From positions 64,290-128,289 of the forward strand of contig VFGV01000004.1 in NCBI GenBank assembly GCA_009392275.1: DNA of 64,000 nt, in the 5' to 3' direction. The notes under the pieces were generated by a model, which searched no databases, was not told where the DNA came from, and saw only the letters and a program-made list of their open reading frames with translations. This stretch comes from SAR202 cluster bacterium (lineage in GTDB: Bacteria; Chloroflexota; Dehalococcoidia; Lucifugimonadales; UBA2962). Position numbers and translations under genes: made by a program. Below are positions 19,508-31,429 of this stretch, piece by piece. Every line of letters begins with the position of its first letter. Positions within the stretch are counted from its first letter, which is position 1.

Positions 19508-20103
19508 AACTCCTAATAGCCACTCATAATCAAGGCAAATATCGTGAATTTGCTGATGCTCTTCGACCCATGGGAGTCAGTGTGCTAAGTTTAAAGACTC
19601 TAGGCATTCATAGGGAAGTTGAAGAAACAGGAACTACTTTTCAAGAAAACGCCATACTCAAAGCTACCGAATATTATTCGCATAGTAATATTCCCACTCT
19701 CTCCGATGATTCTGGCCTAATTGTTGATGTTCTTAATGGGGCACCTGGAATTAAATCCGCCAGATATGCTGGAAACAATGCAACGGATCAAGAAAATAGA
19801 GATAAGTTGCTTTACAAACTAGCAGATACTCCTGCAAACAAGAGAAGGGCGATGTTTGTATGCGTAATTGCTATTATTACCAAACCTAATGAAATCAAAC
19901 TTTTTCAAGGAAAAATACAAGGCCGTATTGCTAATAAAGAAACCGGCAAAATGGGGTTTGGGTATGACTCTATATTTATACCAGAGAACGATACAAGATC
20001 TATGGCGCAGTTGACAGATCATGAAAAAATCAAAATTAGCCACAGAGGAATTGCATTAAGAAAAACTAGCAATTGGTTCAAGAACTCTCGTATATTAAAT
20101 TAA
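19504..20103 (+). CDS. rdgB: RdgB/HAM1-type dITP/XTP pyrophosphatase with a non-canonical start
   Basis: Removes non-canonical purine nucleoside triphosphates (dITP, XTP). The frame encodes the family N terminus ELLIATHNQGKYREF before the first ATG at 19570, so that ATG cannot be the start because it would delete the nucleotide-binding THNQGK segment. Upstream in frame there is no ATG, GTG or TTG. The only plausible initiator is ATA at 19504, overlapping the fba TAG stop and four bases after a perfect GGAGG (19495-19499). Downstream motifs TFQENAILKA, LSDDSGL, GAPGIKSARYAG and GFGYDSIF are intact. A start-codon mutation or a base error in the assembly is the alternative. Confidence 0.88.
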   Translation: MELLIATHNQGKYREFADALRPMGVSVLSLKTLGIHREVEETGTTFQENAILKATEYYSHSNIPTLSDDSGLIVDVLNGAPGIKSARYAGNNATDQENRDKLLYKLADTPANKRRAMFVCVIAIITKPNEIKLFQGKIQGRIANKETGKMGFGYDSIFIPENDTRSMAQLTDHEKIKISHRGIALRKTSNWFKNSRILN

Positions 20104-20109
20104 CGGTAA

Positions 20110-21141
20110 TTGAAATTGAGCGATAAAAAAGAAATAAAAGATCAATTAAAAAGACCAATTAGAGATCTTAGAATATCAGTTACAGATCGTTGTAATTTCC
20201 GATGCGCATACTGTATGCCCGCAGAGATATACGGTGAAAGATACGAATTTCTGGAACAAGACAAGCTGCTAACTTTTGAGGAGATTACGCGTGTAACAAA
20301 TATCGCAGTAAACCTTGGTGTTGAGAAAGTTAGAATTACAGGCGGAGAACCTTTGGTAAGAAAAAACATTGACGTATTAGTGAGGCTTCTCTCAAAAATC
20401 CATAATCTTTCGGACATAGCAATGACTACTAATGGCTATTTACTACCCAAATTCGCACAGACGCTTAAGAATGCTGGACTTACAAGATTGACGGTTAGCC
20501 TTGACACTCTTAATGATGATATTTTTCGACAAATGAATGGCCGAAACTTCGGAGTCAAAAGTGTATTAAAAGGCATCGAAGCAGCTACTATCGCTGGCTT
20601 CCAGCCGATAAAGATAAACTCCGTTGTTCAAAAAGGAATAAATGACCATACGATAACTGATTTAGCAAAATATTTTATAAATCAAGGTCATATAGTGCGT
20701 TTCATAGAATACATGGATGTTGGAACACTAAATAATTGGAACATGAACCACGTAGTTACTGCAAAAGACATTATTAGTAAAATCAACGAAACCATTCCTG
20801 TTAAGGCAATTAAAGCTAAATATCAAGGAGAAGTCGCCAAGAGATACCGTGAAATAAATGGAACAGGCGAAATAGGTGTGATTGCTTCAGTCACAAATCC
20901 ATTTTGTGGAGACTGCACTAGACTACGCCTCTCTCCTGAGGGCAGTTTATACACTTGCCTTTTCGGAACAAAAGGCACAGATCTTAGGGGCCCGATCAGA
21001 GATGGTGCTTCTGACCAAGAACTAGTTGAGATAATTAGTAATACATGGCGAGTAAGAAATGATAGGTACTCAGAGACACGCAACATTAATGCTGATAAAA
21101 CTAATGATAAAAAGGTCGAGATGTACCATATTGGTGGATGA
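20110..21141 (+). CDS. moaA: GTP 3',8-cyclase MoaA
   Basis: Radical-SAM enzyme for the first step of molybdenum cofactor synthesis, converting GTP to 3',8-cyclo-GTP. The 343-residue product carries the N-terminal SAM cluster CNFRCAYC (CxxxCxxC) and ITGGEPL. The second 4Fe-4S site is CGDC followed by a third Cys after 13 residues, and the protein ends in the functionally important C-terminal Gly-Gly (MYHIGG). It starts at TTG, six bases after rdgB. The next gene, 34 bases on, carries MoaC, the partner enzyme for the second step, so the pathway pair is clustered. Confidence 0.95.
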   Translation: MKLSDKKEIKDQLKRPIRDLRISVTDRCNFRCAYCMPAEIYGERYEFLEQDKLLTFEEITRVTNIAVNLGVEKVRITGGEPLVRKNIDVLVRLLSKIHNLSDIAMTTNGYLLPKFAQTLKNAGLTRLTVSLDTLNDDIFRQMNGRNFGVKSVLKGIEAATIAGFQPIKINSVVQKGINDHTITDLAKYFINQGHIVRFIEYMDVGTLNNWNMNHVVTAKDIISKINETIPVKAIKAKYQGEVAKRYREINGTGEIGVIASVTNPFCGDCTRLRLSPEGSLYTCLFGTKGTDLRGPIRDGASDQELVEIISNTWRVRNDRYSETRNINADKTNDKKVEMYHIGG

Positions 21142-21175: not shown

Positions 21176-22075
21176 GTGATAGATATATATACAGACGGAG
21201 CTTGTTCAGGTAACCCTGGTCCCGGTGGGTGGGGTGCTATTGTAATTATTGATGGACAACAAACTGTATTGAAAGGTGGCCTAGCAAAAACAACCAATAA
21301 TCGGATGGAAATGATGGCAGTAATTGAAGGATTAAGGGCTTTACCTCCTAAATCAATCGTTACCATCCATACTGATAGCACATATATAACTAATACGATG
21401 ACAAAAGGATGGCGTAGAAAAGCCAATTTAGATCTCTGGCAAGAAATAGATGATTTGGTAGACAAACAATCCGTGACATGGAAATGGGTTAAGGCACACG
21501 CCGGCAACCCCCTCAACGAACTAGCAGATTCAATTGCCTTCAAAGAATCACAATCGCGAATTACAAAAAGTATAGACTCGATAGAAGAAAATCCAACTCT
21601 GTTCGATGAGGCATTAAGTCATGTTGATCATACTGGCAATGCAAGCATGGTGGATGTTGGTGAAAAAAGCTCCACTTTCCGTGTGGCTAAAGCTGAGGGA
21701 TGGGTTCAAATGAAACCCGCTACACTTAACTTAATTAAAGAAAATTCCATAGGAAAGGGTGATGTTTTAAGCGTAGCAAAAGTAGCGGGAATAATGGCTT
21801 CTAAGAAAACTGCAGATTTGATTCCATTATGTCATCCAATTCCTGTAGATAAAGTTTCAGTTGAAATATCAATCGATGACAATAAAAATGCTATTCATGT
21901 TGTCTCAGAAACTTCAACACATAGTAAAACTGGTATTGAAATGGAGGCTTTAATCGCTGTTTCGATTTCATGTTTAACAATCTACGACATGTGTAAATCT
22001 GCAGAACGAACAATAAAAATAGACGGGATTAGATTGTTGAAAAAAACAGGTGGAAAACACACCTACGAAATATGA
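21176..22075 (+). CDS. Fusion protein: RNase HI domain + MoaC (cyclic pyranopterin monophosphate synthase)
   Basis: One uninterrupted 299-residue frame joins two enzymes. Residues 1-125 are RNase HI: YTDGACSGNPGPGGWG, with the complete catalytic set D7, E45, D67 and D118, and H108 in the VKAHAG loop. After a polar linker (about 126-147), residues 148-299 are MoaC: MVDVGEK, KGDVLSVAKVAGIMASKKT, LIPLCHPIP, KTGIEMEAL and YDMCKS with the conserved Asp271 and Lys274. MoaC converts the MoaA product to cyclic pyranopterin monophosphate, and moaA is directly upstream. Both halves look active. RNase H removes RNA from RNA-DNA hybrids and has no obvious tie to molybdopterin. The start is GTG with a weak ribosome site. 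Confidence 0.93.
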   Translation: MIDIYTDGACSGNPGPGGWGAIVIIDGQQTVLKGGLAKTTNNRMEMMAVIEGLRALPPKSIVTIHTDSTYITNTMTKGWRRKANLDLWQEIDDLVDKQSVTWKWVKAHAGNPLNELADSIAFKESQSRITKSIDSIEENPTLFDEALSHVDHTGNASMVDVGEKSSTFRVAKAEGWVQMKPATLNLIKENSIGKGDVLSVAKVAGIMASKKTADLIPLCHPIPVDKVSVEISIDDNKNAIHVVSETSTHSKTGIEMEALIAVSISCLTIYDMCKSAERTIKIDGIRLLKKTGGKHTYEI

Positions 22076-22112: not shown

Positions 22113-22745
22113 ATGATCAATCCATCTCACTTAAGGGGCTTAATACCTAAATTGACAAAACGTGGTGATTTCGATATTCCTAAATTAATTGTTTTAGGAA
22201 TTGGTAATCCTGAAAACGATTATCATCACACGAGGCATAACGTAGGATTATGGGCCGTTAACACAATACTTGATAAGCATCAGGCGACCTTAAATCACAC
22301 AAAAAGATCGTATGATGCCTGGATAGGAAAACTATATGGGGAGACAATAGTCGTTGGAAAATCTAAAACTTATATGAACGATAGCGGCATGGCAGCAAGA
22401 GCATTACTAAAAGAATATAAGTTATCCGCTGACTCTTTGTTGATCATCTATGATGACATGGACATCGCACCGGGCAATATCAGATTGAAAAAACAGGGAG
22501 GACCAGGAGGCCATAATGGAATGAAATCTATTTGTGAACGCCTAGATACTAAAGATTTCCCCAGACTTAGAATTGGGATCGGTCGTCCCTCTGATAAACA
22601 AGATACAATATCTTATGTTTTATCTAGCCCTAATCCAAAGGAGACAGAGTTAATAACATCCATCTTAGAAAAAATTGATGGAGTTTTAAATAGCATCATA
22701 TGCGACGGTTTAGATACAACTATGGAATGGGCTAATAGATCTTAA
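22113..22745 (+). CDS. pth: Peptidyl-tRNA hydrolase
   Basis: Releases peptides from prematurely dissociated peptidyl-tRNA. Family motifs are LIVLGIGNPENDYHHTRHNVG (with the catalytic His), KSKTYMNDSG and GGPGGHNGMKSI. At 210 residues it is somewhat longer than usual because of a basic extension of about 25 residues before the first strand. No internal start fits better, so I keep the ATG at 22113. It lies 37 bases after the RNase HI-MoaC fusion gene, closing the plus-strand run from fbp, and converges on the first Kelch gene. Confidence 0.95.
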   Translation: MINPSHLRGLIPKLTKRGDFDIPKLIVLGIGNPENDYHHTRHNVGLWAVNTILDKHQATLNHTKRSYDAWIGKLYGETIVVGKSKTYMNDSGMAARALLKEYKLSADSLLIIYDDMDIAPGNIRLKKQGGPGGHNGMKSICERLDTKDFPRLRIGIGRPSDKQDTISYVLSSPNPKETELITSILEKIDGVLNSIICDGLDTTMEWANRS

Positions 22746-22756
22746 TATCAAAAACC

Positions 22757-22772
22757 AACTAGTGTCCTAGTT
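22757..22772. terminator. Short stem-loop between convergent pth and Kelch genes
   Basis: AACTAG and CTAGTT (6-bp stem, 4-base TGTC loop) lie in the 26-base gap between the two convergent stop codons. The stem is short and has no long T run. It may contribute weakly to termination in either direction. Confidence 0.3.
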
Positions 22773-23944
22773 TAACGACTAAATTTTTCAGCCTCAGCCA
22801 ATATCATTTCCTTACCATTACCGCCTGCTACGAGTACAGTGCCATCATTTAAAACTACTGAGACGTGCCTAAACCGTGGTTCCTCCATGTTAGCCAAAAC
22901 AGTCCAACTATCGGTTTCTGGGTTATATATCTCAGCGGAACTACGATTACCCATGCCTCCAGTAACAATTACCTTGCCGTCTGCAGTAATTACGGCTGTA
23001 TGTTGTCCCCGCGGCTCTGATAAGTCTGGCGTCCTTGTCCACGTGTCAGCGGCAGGATCATATATCTCAGCATTATTCCTCTTTCCGCGGCCTCCTACAA
23101 TCAATACTCGGCCGTCTTGTAATAAGGTGGCGGTATGTGAGTGTCTACTTATTGCCATTGGTGCTACTGTTGTCCAAGTGTCTGTTGAGGCGTCATAAAT
23201 TTCAGCTGATTTAAGATATGGGCCATCTTCTTTACCCCCGCCCGTAATTAAAACCCTACCGTCCTGCAAAACAGTCGTTGTATGATTAGCCCTTTTATCG
23301 ACCATAGAAGCAGCTTCAGTCCAAGTGTCAGTGGATGGATCGTATATCTCTGCTGTCTTGTGTAAACCATAGTTCACGTTGTACCCACCAGACACCATGA
23401 ATTTTCCATCGTTCAAAACAGCTCCTTTAACTTCATCTCTGGGTTCGATCATAGGCGCGATAGATTCGAATTCTCCTGTTGCAGGATCCCATATCTCCGC
23501 ATCAGGATATGCATGAGTAAGTGTACCCCTACCACCGGCGACTATAACCCTTCCATCAGGCAATATCCCAGACGCAAAAGCATACCGATGAATTGCCATT
23601 ACTCCAGTAAATTCCCAAGTGTCTGTAGTTGGATCATATATTTCTGCTGTCTCAAAAATATATGTATTATGACTTGTTTTCTCACCAAGTCCCTTACCTC
23701 CCATAACCAACACCTTTCCACCTTCTATCAATATTGCTGAGTGCTGTATTCGAGCATTTTTCATATCTGCAACTCGTTCAAATTCACCTGGCGGTATTGA
23801 CTCGACTGAACCAGTATCATCTATAACTGAATCTTCTTGTTGAATACCTTTTGAGACATCCTGAATTGAATCATCTGAAGATCCACAAGAATAACTAAAA
23901 GCTAAAATAGTGCATAACGCTGTAAACAATAATAGTATTTTCAT
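22772..23944 (-). CDS. Secreted Kelch-repeat beta-propeller lipoprotein (copy 1)
   Basis: The 390-residue product has an N-terminal signal segment followed by SYSCGSSDD, a probable but imperfect lipobox. It then has an acidic linker and seven Kelch repeats. Each repeat has a DGRVLVxGG-type strand and an AEIYDPxTDTW turn, which predicts a seven-bladed propeller like the galactose oxidase N-terminal propeller. No catalytic domain is attached, so it is probably a binding or scaffold protein at the cell surface. It is the downstream member of a tandem pair; the partner (23963-25165) has the same architecture, and only 18 bases separate them. Function unknown. Confidence 0.8.
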   Translation of the reverse strand: MKILLLFTALCTILAFSYSCGSSDDSIQDVSKGIQQEDSVIDDTGSVESIPPGEFERVADMKNARIQHSAILIEGGKVLVMGGKGLGEKTSHNTYIFETAEIYDPTTDTWEFTGVMAIHRYAFASGILPDGRVIVAGGRGTLTHAYPDAEIWDPATGEFESIAPMIEPRDEVKGAVLNDGKFMVSGGYNVNYGLHKTAEIYDPSTDTWTEAASMVDKRANHTTTVLQDGRVLITGGGKEDGPYLKSAEIYDASTDTWTTVAPMAISRHSHTATLLQDGRVLIVGGRGKRNNAEIYDPAADTWTRTPDLSEPRGQHTAVITADGKVIVTGGMGNRSSAEIYNPETDSWTVLANMEEPRFRHVSVVLNDGTVLVAGGNGKEMILAEAEKFSR

Positions 23945-23962: not shown

Positions 23963-25165
23963 CTATGGAGTAAAAAGTTCAGTCTCAGCCAATAGGCCTT
24001 CCTTACCATTCCCACCAATAACTAAAATTTTCCCATTATCTAGTTCAATCATCTGATGTCGATAACGAGTGTCATGCATGTCCAATGTTCTCGTCCATGT
24101 TCCTGTATCAGGGTCAAATATTTCACCTGAAATTCTTAGGCCTATGCCTCCAGTAACCAAAACTCTTCCATCCTGCATTAACACTCCTGAGGCCTCTGAT
24201 CTTGGTATCTCAGTATTTCCCACTTTAGTCCAAACATCAGTCAAGGGGTTATAAACCTCAGCAGTCAACTTTTTACCACGACCTCCCACCACTAAAACGC
24301 TGCCATCCGATAGTTTTACAGCAGTATGCGACGCTCTTCCAGTAGACATTTCTGCAGCAAAAACCCAGCTATCAGTGGCTGGATCATATATTTCAGTAGT
24401 TTTTTCATAAGGAGGATCTAACTTTCCGCCGCCAGTCACTAACACTCGTCCATCATCCAATAGAGTTGCTGTATGCCGAGCTCTTGCAGCTGACATAGAT
24501 GCTGCTTCAGACCATTTGCCTGTAGACGGATCCCAAAGTTCTACTGACGCCTCTACAGCGTAGTCTCGCTCTTCACCACCAATAATAATTACACGCCCAT
24601 CATTTAGAGTTAAGCATGGCATGTAATCACGCCCTATATTCAGGTCATCAGTTTGAGACCACTCGCCAGTCGCGGGATCCCATACTTCTGCGGTTGGCAT
24701 TGCCATATTAAGTTTACCTCGACCTCCAGCAGCTAAAACTTTGCCATCATTTAACAACGCTGCACATAAATCGTGCCGCTGATCTACCATAGATCCAGTT
24801 AAGACCCACTCGTCATTATCTGGAGTATATATTTCTGCTGATTCGTACACAGTATTGTTTAAGTTGGCTCCAGGACCTCGCCCACCGACCACAAAAATCC
24901 TACCATCGGGCAATTTAATTGCACTATGTAATTGCCTGGCTGCCTTCATTTCATCAACAAGAATGAATTCCCCTTGAGATCCATCTGGGGCAGGTTTTTC
25001 ACCACTTTGAATAGTAACGGAGTCACTTTCACCTGAAGAGTTAGCACTGGACGAATCTCCTCCACATGCCATGATCATAGTTAGTAAAAGTAAAACTGAA
25101 ACGATGTTTGTCAACTCAATTTGCTTATAGGCTCTGCTATTTAACATATTTAATATGATTCTCAT
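23963..25165 (-). CDS. Secreted Kelch-repeat beta-propeller lipoprotein (copy 2)
   Basis: Paralogue of the next gene in the same operon. The 400-residue product starts with a longer N terminus, a hydrophobic segment and IMACGGDSSS (lipobox-like Cys). A Ser/Gly/Glu linker follows, then seven Kelch repeats with the same DGRVLV(T/V)GG and EIYDPxTDxW signatures. The repeats align one to one with copy 1, so the pair arose by tandem duplication of a whole gene rather than repeat shuffling. The two have diverged considerably, mostly in loops. The likely place is the outer face of the cell envelope; ligand unknown. Confidence 0.8.
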   Translation of the reverse strand: MRIILNMLNSRAYKQIELTNIVSVLLLLTMIMACGGDSSSANSSGESDSVTIQSGEKPAPDGSQGEFILVDEMKAARQLHSAIKLPDGRIFVVGGRGPGANLNNTVYESAEIYTPDNDEWVLTGSMVDQRHDLCAALLNDGKVLAAGGRGKLNMAMPTAEVWDPATGEWSQTDDLNIGRDYMPCLTLNDGRVIIIGGEERDYAVEASVELWDPSTGKWSEAASMSAARARHTATLLDDGRVLVTGGGKLDPPYEKTTEIYDPATDSWVFAAEMSTGRASHTAVKLSDGSVLVVGGRGKKLTAEVYNPLTDVWTKVGNTEIPRSEASGVLMQDGRVLVTGGIGLRISGEIFDPDTGTWTRTLDMHDTRYRHQMIELDNGKILVIGGNGKEGLLAETELFTP

Positions 25166-29809: not shown

Positions 29810-31429
29810 CTATAATTTAAAATCCATCCTTTTGAATTGACAACCCTCAACAAACAAGTCGAAGAAATCGTCTGTTGTTTCTAATTCTATGTGCTCTACT
29901 TTCAACACCAAGTCCTCGATACGGTTCCTCAACTTCCCGGACAGTAGCATAATCGTTGCCCCCTCAAGTGACGCATTTCCGACCTTTTCAATGTCGTCTA
30001 AATCGACATTGGCTAAGAAGCCAATTTCAATAGCATTTTTCGCGTTTATATAATTCGCAAAACCTCCAGCAAGATAAAGCTTTGCAAGCTCGTTAATCGG
30101 CTGGCCAAATGCACGCAAAACAATCCATTGTCCACAATAATTTGCAGACTTGGCTTGAGCTAGAGCGGATATATCTGCTCGAGACAATGTTAACGCTTGT
30201 TCACTAGCAAATGTGAATTCATTTTCTCCGCTATTAAAAACGCCCAATTCCGTCATTCTTTGTGTTCTTCGTAATTCAGCTAACAAATCGATTAGTCCAG
30301 AACCACAAATACCTTCAGGGTCAGCATTGCCAATGGTTTCAATTTCTACATTGCTGTTATCCATCCTCACTGCCTCAACCGCCCCCTCATACCCAGGCAT
30401 TCCGAATTTAATTTCTCCACCTTCGAAAGCAGGACCTGCGGGGCATGAAGCGGCCAAAATACGATGTCTGTTACCAATAATCACCTCAGTGTTTGTGCCA
30501 ACATCCACTAACATAACACTTTCGTCCATCTCATCCATTCCTATAGCCAAAAGATCTGCCGCAACATCAGACCCAACATGGCTAGCAATTAACGGCCCAC
30601 CATAAATGTTTGCTTTCGGGAAAATCCTAATTCCCAAATCATCTGCTATAGCATTTAAGGCTGTTGACTTACGTTCCCCCTGAATAAACTCCATTTCTAT
30701 TTTAGATTTATATGGTTTTTCGCCTATTGTTTGTACATCAACCCCAAATACTATGTCCCTCATAGTCGAGTTACCAACCAACACTGCTTCATAAATCCGT
30801 CTTCTATGGACTTTGAGCTTGCGACACATATCACCAATTTCAAAATTAATCGATGAAAGCATAACTTTTCGCAATTCCCCATTGTATGGCCCGCCATCGT
30901 ACGAAATTCGATGCATCACGTCACTGCCCCCAAACTTTTGTGGGTTTTCAAAGGAAGTTGTGAATACAGTGACCTGTTTTTCTAAATCTACTAGATTCAT
31001 TGCTACGGTAGTTGTTCCCAAGTCGATGGCTAATCCATAGATACTTCCCTTGTATTCTTCTAGTCTTTGGTCTCCATAACATACAAAATCTCCCGATTTA
31101 CGAGTGATTGGATCAGCAACAATTTTACGTTTAATAGAGCTGGTGAGAATTTTAGGTTGGCGTCGCAAAACGGAAAATTCTAGATTCTCTGCGGCGTCCG
31201 AAATCGCCGCCTGGCATGCGAGCCTATATTGATCTTTAAGGAATTTCTCTGATTTTGTTCTATGTGTTAATCCATCGGAACCTTGTTTAATTTCAACTAT
31301 ACACTCATGGCACTCACCTGTTCGTCCACAAGAAGTAGGAACTCTTATTTTTAGGTCATCCGCATAATCAAATACAGTTTTCCCTTGAAGTAGAGGTATT
31401 TGCTTTTTACCATAAATTAGTGGAGACAA
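29810..31429 (-). CDS. Corrinoid activation protein: 2Fe-2S domain + ASKHA ATPase (RACo-like, DUF4445)
   Basis: Reductive activator that restores inactive Co(II) corrinoid to Co(I) using ATP. The 539-residue product has an N-terminal plant-type ferredoxin domain with Cys34, Cys40, Cys43 and Cys72. The ASKHA actin-like domain follows, with phosphate-1 motif AIDLGTTTVAMNL (about residue 133), phosphate-2 motif LVDVGTNTEVIIGN and a late AGGFA segment. This matches activators of anaerobic O-demethylase and CO-dehydrogenase/acetyl-CoA systems, though shorter than many. It starts at TTG. The gene is downstream of metVF and a corrinoid protein, so its client is very probably that protein. Confidence 0.9.
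   Translation of the reverse strand: MSPLIYGKKQIPLLQGKTVFDYADDLKIRVPTSCGRTGECHECIVEIKQGSDGLTHRTKSEKFLKDQYRLACQAAISDAAENLEFSVLRRQPKILTSSIKRKIVADPITRKSGDFVCYGDQRLEEYKGSIYGLAIDLGTTTVAMNLVDLEKQVTVFTTSFENPQKFGGSDVMHRISYDGGPYNGELRKVMLSSINFEIGDMCRKLKVHRRRIYEAVLVGNSTMRDIVFGVDVQTIGEKPYKSKIEMEFIQGERKSTALNAIADDLGIRIFPKANIYGGPLIASHVGSDVAADLLAIGMDEMDESVMLVDVGTNTEVIIGNRHRILAASCPAGPAFEGGEIKFGMPGYEGAVEAVRMDNSNVEIETIGNADPEGICGSGLIDLLAELRRTQRMTELGVFNSGENEFTFASEQALTLSRADISALAQAKSANYCGQWIVLRAFGQPINELAKLYLAGGFANYINAKNAIEIGFLANVDLDDIEKVGNASLEGATIMLLSGKLRNRIEDLVLKVEHIELETTDDFFDLFVEGCQFKRMDFKL

Follow-up and report, generated by a model that had tools for sequence, protein, structure and literature searches.

Why should an RNase HI-type domain and MoaC, an enzyme of molybdenum-cofactor synthesis, be made as one polypeptide? 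A gene of a SAR202 cluster bacterium, from a group placed by NCBI in Chloroflexota, Dehalococcoidia, encodes exactly this pair, and it raises several questions. Are both halves still enzymes? How did they come to share a frame? What keeps them together? These questions were approached by computational analysis of the 64,000-nucleotide stretch of DNA that carries the gene (hereafter the window), of the genome to which it belongs and of related genomes. The answer that we favour, with a probability of about 0.68, is that the protein arose by fusion within an operon and unites two working, largely independent enzymes, and that it has been kept because moaC lost its own start site.

The fusion gene and its neighbours

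The features of the locus are as follows:

19570..20103, forward strand: rdgB (XTP/dITP diphosphatase), first gene of the rdgB-moaA-(rnhA)-moaC cluster
20110..21141, forward strand: moaA (GTP 3',8-cyclase), directly upstream of the fusion gene; TIGR02666, 389 bits against a cut-off of 284
21176-22075, forward strand: RNase HI-MoaC fusion gene, 299 amino acids plus stop in one uninterrupted frame
21176..21553, forward strand: RNase HI domain, residues 1-126, catalytic D7, E45, D67, H108 and D118
21554..21607, forward strand: linker of 18 codons, hypervariable
21608..22072, forward strand: MoaC domain, residues 145-299
22073..22075, forward strand: stop codon of the fusion gene
22113..22745, forward strand: pth (peptidyl-tRNA hydrolase), downstream, conserved less often

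The frame opens with a GTG codon at 21176, 34 nt past the moaA stop. As the original prediction had said, RNase HI and MoaC lie in a single open frame directly behind moaA, and across its 299 codons both Pfam domains are matched, RNase_H (PF00075) over residues 4-124 (E 3.1e-33) and MoaC over residues 158-293 (E 5e-55). The C-terminal half exceeds the cut-offs of the moaC equivalog TIGR00581 (193.8 bits against 141.5) and of PRK09364 (209.3 bits against 162), and it is the only MoaC match in the window genome, a 1.53 Mb draft of 23 contigs that is 89% complete. The N-terminal half scores 142.4 bits with the rnhA equivalog PRK00203, just below the cut-off of 160, which in our reading fits a deletion of 13 residues; judged by its sequence it is an RNase HI-type domain, for which the status of an rnhA equivalog is not claimed. 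What is missing from it, a feature not mentioned in the original prediction, is the basic protrusion (window sequence at the deletion, TNTMTKGWRRKANLDLW), the corresponding segment having 15 residues against 28 in E. coli. This protrusion is typical of the E. coli type of enzyme and is not a defining feature of all RNases HI.

In phmmer comparisons with PDB sequences, residues 2-122 of the RNase HI domain were aligned to residues 5-138 of E. coli RNase HI, and residues 147-295 were aligned, without any gap and with an offset of 143, to residues 4-152 of E. coli MoaC. D7, E45, D67, H108 and D118 correspond to D10, E48, D70, H124 and D134 of E. coli RNase HI, while K194, H220, E255, E257, D271 and K274 correspond to K51, H77, E112, E114, D128 and K131 of E. 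coli MoaC. The earlier assertion that both active sites are intact and free of decay was borne out, as every residue named at that time is correct and further catalytic residues of MoaC are present. Among fused relatives the catalytic residues of MoaC are near-universal, and RNase H residues D10, E48, D70 and H124 (E. coli numbering, used from here on) are each found in at least 110 of 114 copies.

Purifying selection is equal on the two domains. When 13 close pairs sharing no member were pooled, pN/pS was 0.11 for RNase H and 0.12 for MoaC, and it was about 0.5 (0.47) for the linker; between the window and a relative of 93% identity, the values were 0.10, 0.15 and 0.62, respectively. No RNase HI other than the fusion was found in the window genome (G000) or in its genus, and the window genome has an RNase HII besides.

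Beyond pth, on the reverse strand of the window, two adjacent related genes (22772-23944 and 23963-25165) apparently encode secreted kelch-like repeat proteins, as judged by eye, and are likely to be a tandem duplication. The translation of another reverse-strand gene (29810-31429) resembles, again by eye, a 2Fe-2S plus ASKHA-type corrinoid activation protein.

Distribution and history of the fusion

The same fusion, which the original prediction had proposed to seek in related genomes, is present in one frame and in one copy each in five of the five genomes of the genus, with 75-100% identity. Among the matches listed, the closest named record is that of SAR202 cluster bacterium ALOHA_A2.5_113, whose fusion has 93% identity. 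The search covered overlapping genome samples at three ranks (order, 247; class, 294; phylum, 301), and about 200 loci were fetched. The two genes were close together at 170 loci, fused without a stop at 117 and separate at 53, the separate genes being within 250 nt of each other at 50 of the 53 (median gap, 102 nt). Counted by genome, in numbers that are biased to strong matches and are not frequencies, the order has the fusion in 84, adjacent genes in 50 and no nearby rnhA in 17, the corresponding numbers for the rest of the class being 28, 2 and 18. Within the class, the fusion is therefore carried by at least 112 genomes, and 52 have separate adjacent genes. Of the 51 family codes in which both genes were found together, 49 include a fused copy.

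Outside the class the picture is different. Among the matches listed, none of the roughly 263 genomes sampled from other Chloroflexota classes had a single-frame fusion. A search of two of these classes at a strict E-value (327 and 47 genomes, in overlapping samples with no internal positive control) also gave no fusion, and this empty result is weak evidence, even with a query that does match in the home class. When 84,980 species were scanned with short peptides from the window as seeds, only Chloroflexota contigs matched both domains among the matches listed (80 loci).

The RNase HI encoded here comes in two forms. The short form, to which the window copy belongs, lacks the basic protrusion; the other form is long. 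The partners in the fusion are operon neighbours. In molybdenum-cofactor synthesis the MoaA step precedes that of MoaC, and the product of MoaA is the substrate of MoaC. Upstream on the same strand, and usually adjoining, moaA is found at 85 of 107 fused short loci, 16 of 18 separate short loci and 26 of 33 separate long loci, and rdgB is found upstream on the same strand at 78 of the 107 fused short loci and precedes moaA at most loci; contig ends may explain some of the loci that lack moaA or rdgB in these counts. Other lineages of the class have rdgB-moaA-moaC without rnhA, often with a gap of about 45 nt between moaA and moaC. Since the cluster exists without it, rnhA can be regarded as a movable element inserted into a two-step cofactor operon.

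A concatenated tree was made from the two domains after removal of the protrusion. On this tree, whose root was not inferred so that gain and loss are not told apart with certainty, the fused or separate state changes at least nine times and the short or long form changes once. The long clade contains at least two independent fusions (L163; L007/L008/L177/L243), and the mostly fused short clade contains about six lineages with separate genes. The short or long form changes nine times on a tree of MoaC alone and once on a tree of RNase H alone, which we read as a sign that rnhA may have been replaced in place between moaA and moaC, the support values of the MoaC tree being modest. Some loci hold more than one RNase H copy. 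At G147:C1:1979894-1981413 (L177), three RNase H matches stand in a row, two of them in a frame of 506 codons and the third being an RNase HI-MoaC fusion. At G397:C114:17394-18142 (L261), a degenerate RNase H copy with one TAG within the match lies directly upstream of the fusion, which suggests tandem duplication at the site.

The original prediction regarded relatives with two separate adjacent genes as evidence against the fusion. Such relatives are numerous, and they show from what the fusion arose rather than refuting anything. The proposal of a translational fusion fixed in the lineage agrees well with the adjacent separate genes of relatives, with the repeated gains and losses and with the hypervariable linker. 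The description of the lineage as streamlined holds only in part, since genomes as large as 3.2-4.0 Mb (G043, G050, G062, G079, G371 and G382) carry the fusion as well; judging from these genomes, streamlining was rejected as the sole cause.

What holds the two domains together

In an AlphaFold2 model both domains have pLDDT values above 90, the linker falls below 50 (core residues 132-146) and pTM is 0.52; the linker is predicted to be disordered, and no fixed relative pose of the two domains is predicted. Might the domains then be made or kept separate in the cell, through an internal start for MoaC or through cleavage of the linker? Besides the predicted disorder, an in-frame ATG at 21647 (residue 158, at the position of E. 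coli MoaC M15) speaks for this, but a start there would remove about 14 residues of MoaC, and the 25 codons that lead up to the MoaC anchor of the window include no in-frame start codon. Across relatives, start codons near the MoaC border occur in 51 of 114 fused loci, which is the chance rate (about 46% expected by our estimate), and a start together with a Shine-Dalgarno-like motif occurs in 17 of 114 fused loci versus 22 of 52 separate ones. Because there is no start near the border in the window and starts occur at the chance rate in fused relatives, MoaC is probably produced only as the fusion. An internal translation start was rejected, as starts are not enriched above chance in fused loci, and separate products in general are very improbable. 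The chance that a stop or start was simply missed at the junction by sequencing or assembly is negligible. The assembly is indeed a draft in 23 contigs, and in many relatives a stop codon interrupts the junction, but an open junction is common to all five genomes of the genus and to more than 100 others with linkers differing in length and sequence, and an artefact was rejected on the strength of these independent genomes.

In part of the clade, the sequences indicate that the fused RNase H may be changing its function. D134 is replaced by N in 32 and by H in 4 of the 114 fused copies, whereas it is D in every scorable separate copy. The D134N variants (and some D134H) are spread over families f88, f101, f29, f22, f14, f5, f32 and others, several of them being the sole RNase HI found. 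In family f7 (L232, L234; G068, G047), the fused RNase H has D10A and H124P and no D134, and a second, long, separate RNase HI is encoded elsewhere in the same two genomes. The dead domain of f7 is still constrained, with a pN/pS of 0.11 (interval 0.06-0.19). Such constraint is not strictly expected of two wholly independent passengers; a need for folding would explain it, and the dead but constrained domain is the one hint of the functional tie that the original prediction had considered, in which a nucleic-acid domain would locate or stabilise MoaC. In a sister genome of these two (G010), the RNase H domain has been lost and moaC comes straight after moaA.

The favoured explanation, an operon-born fusion, would work as follows. 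With rnhA standing between moaA and moaC in the conserved rdgB-moaA-rnhA-moaC cluster, the rnhA stop was most likely lost in frame with moaC, which would give one polypeptide. Most likely the two domains do the usual jobs of their families, the N-terminal one cleaving RNA within RNA:DNA hybrids and the C-terminal one converting the MoaA product to cyclic pyranopterin monophosphate. MoaC proteins form hexamers, and with a flexible linker a hexamer would present several RNase HI heads per particle. We infer that a ratchet keeps the genes fused, as they could be split only by gaining a new stop as well as a new start. Counting against this explanation, besides the constraint on the dead f7 domain and the replacements of D134, persistence of the fusion across most of the sampled families exceeds what pure accident would obviously suggest.

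The main rival, though unlikely, is functional coupling, in which the MoaC hexamer with its many heads would supply the affinity for hybrids that an RNase HI without a protrusion is missing. It is modelled by analogy on mycobacterial Rv2228c, in which the RNase H has no protrusion, the isolated domain is slower than the full-length protein and the CobC domain was suspected to be the replacement (PMC7466739); the hybrid-binding domain of the B. halodurans enzyme has been proposed to compensate likewise for the missing protrusion (PMC1950709). The protrusion is absent from 109 of 114 fused copies but from only 18 of 52 separate ones, as coupling would have it. Against this, the concatenated tree and the RNase H tree each show a single change of the short form, so that the association rests on about one event, and a paired test of fused against short state on the tree found no informative independent pair. 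Moreover, 18 short copies are separate, short standalone RNases HI are present in Bacteroidales and Peregrinibacteria, five long copies are fused, and in SCO2299 of Streptomyces the two domains act independently (PMC7466739). Protrusion loss as a consequence of fusion was likewise rejected, given the single change on the tree and the short standalone enzymes elsewhere.

An improbable alternative is that the RNase H fold now serves MoaC as a structural or localising part, with catalysis secondary or dispensable. The f7 domain, dead and yet at a pN/pS of 0.11 in genomes with a separate long RNase HI, would be understandable in this way, as would the 32 D134N and 4 D134H copies. However, in the window and most relatives the catalytic residues are intact and the fusion is the sole RNase HI, and G010, having lost the domain and kept MoaC, indicates that MoaC does without it; separate moaC genes are common as well. 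A broader picture, also improbable, combines the two ideas: an RNase HI without a protrusion would have the MoaC hexamer as its multivalent scaffold, and exaptation in some families would have made the RNase H a dead nucleic-acid-binding or structural subunit of MoaC. If that were true, molybdenum-cofactor synthesis would be tied to nucleic acid.

Significance and comparison with known systems

The host group is large, mostly uncultured and oceanic. Its clade keeps most stages in the life of a fusion: no rnhA, adjacent genes, an intact sole-copy fusion, an altered site together with a second RNase HI, a dead domain, and loss. With this natural series one can ask if selection favours fusions of unrelated enzymes or simply tolerates them. 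There is a warning for annotation too: a 'MoaC' in this group often bears the only RNase HI of the cell.

That no RNase HI-MoaC enzyme is established, as had been stated at the outset, is consistent with the open-licence PMC literature, in which no earlier report of the architecture was found. Compared with stand-alone MoaC (TIGR00581) and RNase HI (rnhA), each half has the same domain and catalytic residues, and here they form one polypeptide. As in MoaC/MoaB (PRK03604), MoaC/MOSC (PRK14499) and MoaC/MobA (PRK14500), MoaC is joined to a neighbour gene; unlike the RNase HI of the window, the partners in those proteins belong to the same or a linked pathway. Membership in these bifunctional families was rejected by score (185.5 against 285, 180 against 457 and 136.7 against 606, respectively). 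In Archaea, MoaC-MoaC, MoaC-MoaE and MoaC-MoaB fusions have been described, and frameshifts in conserved syntenic blocks have been suggested as their origin (PMC11237513).

The closest precedent is the RNase HI-CobC (acid phosphatase) proteins of Actinobacteria, namely Rv2228c, MSMEG_4305 and SCO2299 (PMC7466739), which judging from the sequences is an independent parallel. The window protein scores 47.7 bits with PRK07238 (RNase H/acid phosphatase) against a cut-off of 326, and 142 with the rnhA model of the E. coli type; with this score and with MoaC as the C-terminal domain, membership in the RNase H/acid phosphatase family was rejected. The two systems are alike in having an N-terminal RNase HI, without the protrusion in Rv2228c, followed by a C-terminal enzyme of cofactor synthesis (PMC7466739). 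They differ in that the partner in the window is MoaC and not CobC of B12 synthesis, and in the lineage of the RNase HI. After RNase HI-CobC of Actinobacteria, the fusion in the window is thus a second independent case in which a protrusion-less RNase HI is joined to an unrelated enzyme of cofactor synthesis.
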